Assembly (NCBI GenBank): GCA_016744455.1
Contig: JADGEI010000001.1
Location: forward strand, 518,884-582,883
DNA length: 64,000 nt
Source of the DNA: Alcanivoracaceae bacterium
GTDB lineage: Bacteria; Pseudomonadota; Gammaproteobacteria; Xanthomonadales; Marinicellaceae
Direction: 5' to 3'
Under the pieces are notes generated by a model. It worked only from the letters and a program-made list of their open reading frames with translations, did not search any database and had not been told where the DNA came from. This document shows positions 21,129-25,032 of the stretch, one piece after another (the stretch's first letter is position 1; the number at the start of each line of letters is the position of its first letter). The position numbers and the translations under genes are program-made.

Positions 21129-21509
21129 CTAAAATCCTCCTTTTTTCACCTTAATTAATTCGCGGCGTGATTTTTTGTCGGGGTGCTTAGGGGGGCGCGG
21201 AGCGGTGGAATAGGTCATTTTGTTGACCGTAATAGCGTCTTCTCGCGCTTTTATTGACTCAGGAGTTTCTTGGTAACATTCAACAGCAATTTTAGCAGCA
21301 ACGCGTTTTTCAATTAAGCATATAACTTCTATATTCCAGGAAATTTCACCTTTGCGAATAAGGATAGTATCACCAATATTGACGACTCTTGATGGTTTGA
21401 CTTTCTGCTCAGCAATTTTAACTTTCCCATTTTCAACATGTTTTTTTGCAAGTGAACGAGTTTTATAAAATCGGGTGGACCACAACCATTTATCAATTCT
21501 TACAGCCAT
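21129..21509 (-). CDS. hslR: S4-domain RNA-binding heat shock protein 15
   Basis: RIDKWLWSTRFYKTRSLAKKHVENGKVKI. Confidence 0.9.
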   Translation of the reverse strand: MAVRIDKWLWSTRFYKTRSLAKKHVENGKVKIAEQKVKPSRVVNIGDTILIRKGEISWNIEVICLIEKRVAAKIAVECYQETPESIKAREDAITVNKMTYSTAPRPPKHPDKKSRRELIKVKKGGF

Positions 21510-21584: not shown

Positions 21585-21593
21585 TGTTATAAT
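21585..21593 (+). promoter_or_regulatory. extended -10 promoter of thrS leader
   Basis: TGTTATAAT (TGnTATAAT consensus). Confidence 0.7.
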
Positions 21594-21599
21594 TCAGCT

Positions 21600-21623
21600 A
21601 TGAAAACGACGACCAAAAACTAA
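21600..21623 (+). CDS. threonine-rich leader peptide MKTTTKN of thrS attenuator
   Basis: ATG AAA ACG ACG ACC AAA AAC TAA, three consecutive Thr codons just before a terminator and thrS. Confidence 0.65.
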   Translation: MKTTTKN

Positions 21624-21646
21624 TTTTAGTCACACTTAAACTGCAT

Positions 21647-21670
21647 AAGCACTTTGAGTGCTTTTTTTTT
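21647..21670 (+). terminator. intrinsic terminator/attenuator upstream of thrS
   Basis: AAGCACT-TTG-AGTGCTT perfect 7-bp stem followed by T-run. Confidence 0.85.
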
Positions 21671-21695: not shown

Positions 21696-23603
21696 ATGCC
21701 AATTATTACTTTAACAGATGGTTCACAACGTAGCTTTGACAAGACAGTCAGTGCATTTGATGTCGCAATGGATATCGGCCCAGGCCTCGCTAATGCGGCT
21801 CTGGCAGCTAAAATTGATGGGGAATTAGTGGACTTGGCTACAACAATTTCCAACGATGTTGAATTGTCAATAGTCACCAGTAGAGATGAAGACGGTTTAG
21901 AAGTCATTAGACATTCTACAGCTCACTTAATGGCACAAGCCGTAAAAAGATTGTATCCTCAAGTTCAAGTGACTATTGGGCCAGTAATTGATAATGGTTT
22001 TTTCTATGATTTTTCTAGTGAACATCACTTTACGGATGAGGAATTGATAAAGATTACGACAGAAATGCGTAAGATTGTTAAACAAAAACTACCTGTTGAA
22101 CGTCATACTATGTCTCGTGATGAGGCAATTAAATTATTTGAAAATATGGGTGAGAATTACAAGGCTGAAATTATTGCTGACATTCCTGAAGATCAAATAT
22201 TGAGCTTGTATAAACAAGGTGAATTTATTGACTTATGCCGTGGCCCACATGTACCAAACACTTCAAAGCTAAAAGTTTTTAAACTCATGCACGTGGCTGG
22301 TGCCTATTGGCGAGGTGATAGCAATAATGAAATGTTACAACGTATTTATGGTACAGCATGGGGTGACAAGAAAGACCTGAAGGATTATCTGCATATGCTT
22401 GAAGAAGCAGAGAAACGAGATCATCGTAAGCTTGGGAAGCGGATGGATTTGTATCATTTTCAAGAAGAAGCTCCTGGAATGGTTTTTTGGCACCCAAATG
22501 GTTGGTCTATTTACCAAACTGTTCAACAGCATATGCGTAACAAGCTAAACTTACGTGATTACAAAGAAATTAATACACCAGAAATTGTTGACTATAGTTT
22601 GTGGGAAAGATCAGGACATGCCGATAAATTTAGTGATGATATGTTTGCCATCACAACAGATGAACGCAAATATGCCATAAAACCAATGAATTGCCCTTGT
22701 CATGTACAGGTTTATAATCAAGGGTTAAAAAGTTACCGAGATTTACCTTTAAGGTTGGCTGAATTTGGTTCTTGCCACCGTAACGAGCCATCTGGTGCTT
22801 TACATGGTCTAATGCGTGTACGAGCATTTGTGCAAGATGATGCTCATATCTTTTGCACAGAAGAACAAATCCAAACTGAAGTTTCAGAATTTATAGATTT
22901 TTTACATGAAATTTATCAAGATTTTGGTTTTACTGAAATTATCTATCGATTATCAACTCGTCCAGAAAAGCGTGTGGGTAGTGATGAAATATGGGATAAA
23001 TCAGAACAAGCTTTAGCAACTGCTTTAGATAATAAAAACCTTGATTGGGAAGAGTTGCCTGGTGAAGGTGCTTTTTATGGTCCCAAAATTGAGTTTTCAT
23101 TAAAAGATTGTTTGGGGCGTGTTTGGCAATGCGGTACAATTCAGGTTGATTTCTCTATGCCAGATAGATTAGATGCAACTTATATTGGTGAAGATGGTGA
23201 TCGTCATGCGCCAGTCATGTTGCATAGAGCAATATTAGGATCATTTGAGAGATTTATCGGAATTCTTATTGAGCATCATGCGGGTAACTTACCATTTTGG
23301 CTTGCACCAATACAAGCAGTAGTAATGAATATTACAGACGCTCAAAGCGAATATGCGGCCAAAATAGCACAAACTTTGCAAAACAATGGATTTAGAGTTA
23401 AATTAGACTTGAGAAATGAGAAGATTGGCTATAAAATTCGCGAACATACTTTAGAGAAGTGTGCTTATATGTTGGTGGTTGGAAATAAAGAGATGGAAAG
23501 CCAGACAGTAACAGTGAGAAAGTTAAATGGTGAAGATATTGGAAATATGTCAATAGATTCCTTGTTAGAACACTCAAAACAAGCAATGATCGATAAAGTT
23601 TAA
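21696..23603 (+). CDS. thrS: threonine--tRNA ligase
   Basis: [17 protein letters not shown] domain, [26 protein letters not shown]; start set at MPIITL. Confidence 0.97.
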
Positions 23604-24880: not shown

Positions 24881-24923
24881 AACTTCTGCCTGAGTTTTTT
24901 AAAACTCAACAGAATTAAATCTT

Positions 24924-24974
24924 AAGGGGAATTAGCCTTTCAGCTGAGCTGAGAGAGCTATTTCCCTTTTTTTT
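24924..24974 (+). terminator. intrinsic terminator/possible attenuator between rplT and pheS
   Basis: AAGGGGAATTAGC pairs with GCTATTTCCCTT (one bulge) followed by T8. Confidence 0.75.
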
Positions 24975-25032
24975 ATGAAAAACCTAAAAGCACATTAATA
25001 GCAATTTGGGTTGAATTCACAACAGGTGAACC

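Follow-up and report, generated by a model that had tools for sequence, protein, structure and literature searches.

By what means is thrS, the gene of threonyl-tRNA synthetase (ThrRS), controlled in the bacterium whose DNA is analysed here? In E. coli, ThrRS binds tRNA-like hairpins in the thrS operator and acts on translation. For the present locus, contained in a stretch of 64,000 nucleotides (hereafter the window) of a 3.62-Mb genome, a comparison of related genomes suggests that the element preceding thrS is very probably a ribosome-mediated, leaderless transcription attenuator that senses charged tRNA-Thr.

The window's thrS is 64–75% identical to other gammaproteobacterial thrS loci; its nearest relatives are Lysobacterales MAGs and Marinicella gelatinilytica (73–75% identity), and the family is Marinicellaceae. 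Within the genus, identity over the first 201 amino acids compared is 80–89%. Since the upstream neighbour (21129–21509) is encoded on the opposite strand, the thrS promoter should reside within the interval before thrS, the features of which are as follows.

21585–21593, + strand: extended −10, TG-T-TATAAT (TGTTATAAT), with the −10 hexamer at 21588–21593 (direct reading)
21594–21599, + strand: 6-nt gap between the −10 and the leader ATG (length kept, bases variable)
21600–21623, + strand: leader ORF for MKTTTKN, with Thr codons at 21606–21614 (direct reading)
21611–21631, + strand: weak hairpin GAC...GTC, from the Thr codons to the region after the stop codon (folding; some relatives)
21633–21640, + strand: 5′ arm of the competing (antiterminator) hairpin, CACTTAAA, pairing with 21653–21660 (minimum-energy fold; compensatory changes)
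21642–21651, + strand: inner stem of the competing hairpin, TGC-ATAA-GCA (folding)
21647–21670, + strand: intrinsic terminator, AAGCACT-TTG-AGTGCTT and T9 (direct reading, folding, conservation)
21653–21660, + strand: 3′ arm of the competing hairpin, TTTGAGTG, overlapping the terminator loop and 3′ arm
21696–23603, + strand: thrS, heading the series thrS-infC-rpmI-rplT-pheS (ORF translations, from which the names are taken)

A seven-codon threonine leader

Four of these features had been claimed in an earlier note on this DNA, and all four were found in their exact places: the extended −10, the leader ATG AAA ACG ACG ACC AAA AAC TAA, the terminator (arms at 21647–21653 and 21657–21663, run of nine T at 21662–21670) and the thrS ATG at 21696, whose ORF extends to 23603. 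The leader ATG and the end of the T run delimit a segment of 71 nt.

Conservation was assessed in the 10 genomes of the genus, including the window's own, that have a readable thrS upstream region. The earlier note had named lack of conservation of the leader ORF or its Thr codons as grounds for abandoning the attenuator; the seven-codon ORF proved to be kept in all 10 genomes, with two to four Thr codons in each. The encoded peptides are MKTTTKN, MKTTTTN (three genomes), MKTTTTI, MKTTTIT, MNTTILN, MITTTIN and MKTTTIN (two genomes); the leader of one genome, G009, retains only two Thr codons. Codons 3 and 4 are invariably ACG ACG, and codon 5 specifies Thr in nine genomes through the synonymous triplets ACC, ACA and ACG, and is ATT in the remaining one. 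ACG, the commonest Thr codon of the leaders, accounts for only 82 of the 955 Thr codons in long ORFs of the window, fewer than any other, so that the leader codons are not a random draw from the Thr codons. The pattern TGTTATAAT-N6-ATGAAAACG occurs once in the genome. Matches to TATAAT-N6-ATGANNACNACNAC were present in two of 387 gammaproteobacterial genomes, one of them being the window's genome; in the other, the match opens an unrelated and longer reading frame.

Start of the leader RNA

The extended −10, TGNTATAAT, is present in all 10 genomes of the genus, and the DNA on its 5′ side diverges among them. Only six bases separate the −10 from the ATG, so that transcription should start on or next to the A at 21600; the gap measures 7 nt in G004 and 6 nt in each of the nine other genomes. 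No Shine-Dalgarno-like run precedes the leader ATG in any of the 10. The RNA is thus predicted to begin with the leader ATG or no more than two bases from it.

A similar geometry was seen in the his operons of the family, for which we used the hisG upstream regions of Marinicellaceae (L130 and L135–L163). An automatic scan detected His-rich leaders starting 6–7 nt after TTGAC(A/T)-N16/17-TANNAT in 18 genomes, which belong to two genera, and three further cases were recognized by eye (L138, L140 and L141). The arrangement in the window's genome is TTGACA-N16-TACTAT-N7-ATG (MNINLIALHHHHHHFIMDGAC). The his leaders of Marinicellaceae are apparently leaderless, and their geometry lends independent support to leaderless initiation at thrS. 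Taken together, the conserved gap of 6–7 nt, the absence of a Shine-Dalgarno sequence and the his-leader geometry make the A of the thrS leader ATG the favoured transcription start. The sequence TGNTATAAT-N6-ATG was found at nine sites genome-wide, compared with three in a reversed control, and at five of the nine the ATG begins an ORF, 76 to 501 codons long. To judge from these five sites and the his leaders, leaderless starts seem to be nothing unusual for this organism. Before ilvB, two aspartate kinase genes and trpE of the window's genome, no leader was seen in the upstream sequence that was read. In three of the hisG upstream regions (L140, L141 and L157) there seem to be two His leaders.

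Two competing hairpins and the proposed switch

The earlier note had discerned no convincing antiterminator by eye. Folding supplied one: the minimum-energy fold of the leader (−13.3 kcal/mol; z −4.0 without the U tract) lacks the terminator and contains a long hairpin, formed by 21633–21640 and 21653–21660 with the TGC/GCA stem inside it. An alternative fold competing with the terminator, the absence of which the note had regarded as fatal to its proposal, therefore exists. The long hairpin draws on bases of both terminator arms, GTG in the 3′ arm and GCA in the 5′ arm, so that the two predicted folds are mutually exclusive. In eight of the 10 genomes its predicted stability exceeds that of the terminator, by 0.8 to 5.5 kcal/mol; G004 and G009 show the reverse order. 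The inner stem of the long hairpin occurs as UGC/GCA or in a shortened form in most relatives and is absent in G009.

Comparison of the folds across relatives, which the earlier note had recommended, revealed that the competing fold covaries and that the terminator arms are invariant. The terminator GCAC/GTGC and nine T are identical in all 10 genomes, and the stretch between the terminator and thrS diverges. In the long helix, alignment columns 57 and 82 pair as GC, AU, GU and UA, and columns 60 and 79 as AU, GU and UA. The covariation score of the helix was 0.186 against 0.084 in shuffles, none of 500 shuffles scoring as high, and sliding the partner strand abolished the signal. This count is conservative, since G009 is misaligned by one base in the long helix and was scored as broken. 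The invariant GCAC lies partly in a loop or mismatch of the long hairpin. Separate conservation of both predicted folds is the signature of a switch, as judged from the alignment. When the intervening stretch was shuffled with the terminator fixed, an equally good competing hairpin appeared in 22% of shuffles for G009 (224 of 1000), in 7% for G006 and in 0–2% for the eight other genomes. Only one base separates the long hairpin from the T run, and weak termination by the long hairpin itself is conceivable.

Two further stems were considered and set aside. The GAC/GTC stem at 21611–21631 is predicted in the window and is not kept throughout the relatives; a classical 1:2 stem, in which 21625–21631, just after the stop codon, would pair with the long hairpin's 5′ arm, was not predicted when that stretch was folded in isolation (0 kcal/mol). 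A search against Rfam gave no match at gathering score, to the T-box or any other family, anywhere in the window.

We infer the start site, the ribosome positions and the direction of response described below; the parts, their conservation, the exclusion of one predicted fold by the other and the covariation are evident in the sequences themselves. With the RNA beginning at or near the leader ATG, the seven-codon leader would be translated from a 5′-terminal AUG. When Thr-tRNA is ample, the ribosome would reach the UAA with its leading edge near 21633–21635 and disturb the base of the long hairpin, whereupon the GCAC/GTGC hairpin would form before T9 and transcription would stop. When Thr-tRNA is scarce, the ribosome would stall at codons 3–5 with its edge near 21624–21626 or earlier, and the long hairpin (21633–21660) would take the terminator 3′ arm, so that polymerase continues into thrS. 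Threonine shortage should thus turn thrS up.

A ribosome with UAA in its A site should hide about 10–12 nt past the stop codon, and one stalled on leader codons 3–5 would hide at most 2–3 nt. The long hairpin begins 9 nt after the stop in the window and 12–15 nt after it in the relatives, so that the ribosome at the stop would only just reach it. For the eight genomes in which the long hairpin is the stabler, the terminator becomes the predicted fold once 11 nt (window) or 13–14 nt (relatives) past the stop are hidden; G004 and G009 need no hiding. Covering the first one or two bases of the long hairpin, roughly the point to which a ribosome at the stop would extend, is thus enough to switch the prediction. 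Set against the 10–12 nt hidden by a ribosome, these values would put the events in the right order with a small margin, and it is at this point that the attenuator model is weakest.

thrS control elsewhere and rival explanations

An RNA model built from the ten genomes matched only this genus among 120 genomes representing 56 genera of the order. The element was absent from 18 upstream regions inspected in sister genera of Marinicellaceae, in four of which (L110, L114, L115 and L120) the stretch inspected was not exactly at the thrS start. Among 80 other gammaproteobacterial loci, thrS is preceded in 39 (within L005–L080) by a hairpin with a 7-nt loop resembling the tRNA-Thr anticodon. This hairpin stands 16–30 nt before thrS, its loop is mostly YUNGUAN, and position 34 is A, C, G or U. 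These properties are consistent with an E. coli-type ThrRS operator, and such translational operators look widespread in gammaproteobacteria. None of the 10 genomes of the genus has a hairpin of this kind upstream of thrS, bearing out the contrast with E. coli thrS drawn in the earlier note. A tRNA gene, often followed by a terminator, lies directly 5′ of thrS at 26 of the 80 loci, all lacking the operator-like hairpin and mostly from Methylococcales (for example, L028, L029 and L032). Upstream of thrS in Marinicella gelatinilytica, which belongs to a sister genus, there are an extended −10 and a CCAAAGA/TCTTTGG hairpin, without a Thr leader.

These comparisons also bear on other readings of the locus. 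The window shows no good −35 box before the thrS leader, as might be expected if a Thr attenuator were transcribed from a start further upstream and its ORF initiated internally without a Shine-Dalgarno sequence. We consider this unlikely: the distance from TGNTATAAT to the ATG varies only between 6 nt (nine genomes) and 7 nt (one genome) while the bases within it change, Shine-Dalgarno sequences are absent from all 10, and the family's his leaders combine the same geometry with full −35 and −10 elements. Decidedly improbable is an arrangement in which both hairpins are terminators, the long one being the stronger, with constant low read-through and no ribosome switch. The C and nine T following the long hairpin would be an acceptable terminator spacing, but the separate conservation of an invariant GCAC/GUGC and a covarying long helix speaks against it, and the conserved Thr codons would be left without a role.

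The established autoregulation of E. coli thrS, together with the tRNA-Thr-like hairpins at 39 of 80 other loci, could suggest that the leader is instead a target of ThrRS and its short ORF incidental. This seems very improbable, because no member of the genus has such a hairpin, neither predicted hairpin presents an NGU anticodon-like 7-nt loop, and the seven-codon Thr ORF is conserved. AT-rich DNA commonly contains short ORFs and terminators, and an ordinary terminator might have come to stand beside a functionless ORF by chance; we give this next to no credence, as the genome comparison already contradicts it, with the arrangement kept in 10 of 10 genomes at 80–89% thrS identity through synonymous codon changes and compensatory pair changes.

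The leaderless attenuator favoured here resembles the classical attenuators of E. coli (thrLABC, trpL, hisL and pheM-pheST), in which regulatory codons, a stop codon, a competing fold and a terminator precede the gene. It differs from them in lacking a Shine-Dalgarno site and, as predicted, a 5′ UTR, and in that the competing hairpin, 9–15 nt past the stop, takes the terminator 3′ arm. With the E. coli thrS operator it shares the gene and the physiological purpose, but not the hairpin type. Leaderless attenuator leader peptides are also known in actinobacteria. The rnTrpL RNA of Sinorhizobium meliloti starts at the ATG of the short attenuator ORF of a leaderless trpL (PMC7298713). It shares with the thrS leader transcription attenuation and an RNA start at the leader ATG, both of which are predicted here, and differs in concerning tryptophan, a biosynthetic operon and an alphaproteobacterium. 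Closer in content is thrL, a Thr leader peptide that precedes thrS in Streptomyces lividans TK24 and is reported from RNA-seq to be leaderless; it has 18 codons, two of them Thr, and no clear intrinsic terminator (PMC8079986), whereas the Marinicellaceae leader, from an unrelated phylum, is only 7 codons long with as many as four Thr, and is followed by a clear T9 terminator and a competing hairpin that covaries. Given these precedents in Sinorhizobium, actinobacteria and S. lividans, the kind of system is already known. As far as the searchable literature goes, the gammaproteobacterial occurrence, the compact form and the apparently leaderless leaders across the family are new; no thrS attenuator in gammaproteobacteria was found in the open-access literature, and Lopatovskaya et al. 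2010, which concerns attenuation of aminoacyl-tRNA operons as cited in PMC4833913, could contain earlier predictions.

On balance, we lean towards the view that leaderless attenuator leaders (his and thrS) are general in Marinicellaceae and that in one genus a leaderless Thr attenuator, with its competing hairpin on the terminator 3′ arm, took over the control of thrS, the ThrRS operator being absent. Together with the his leaders, it suggests a whole gammaproteobacterial family that starts attenuators without a 5′ UTR. The very small system packs predicted 5′-terminal initiation, a seven-codon ORF and two competing hairpins together, and would lend itself to work on translation initiation on leaderless RNA with polymerase a few dozen bases ahead. 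One housekeeping gene would also be controlled differently in related lineages, by a tRNA-like operator, an attenuator or neither.

Further along the same gene series, the rplT-pheS gap (24920–24975 of the window) contains a long hairpin and T run (AAGGGGAATTAGC...GCTATTTCCCTTTTTTTT), without a Phe leader ORF. The hairpin is kept in six relatives (L168–L173) with compensatory-looking changes, and separate control of pheST is possible.
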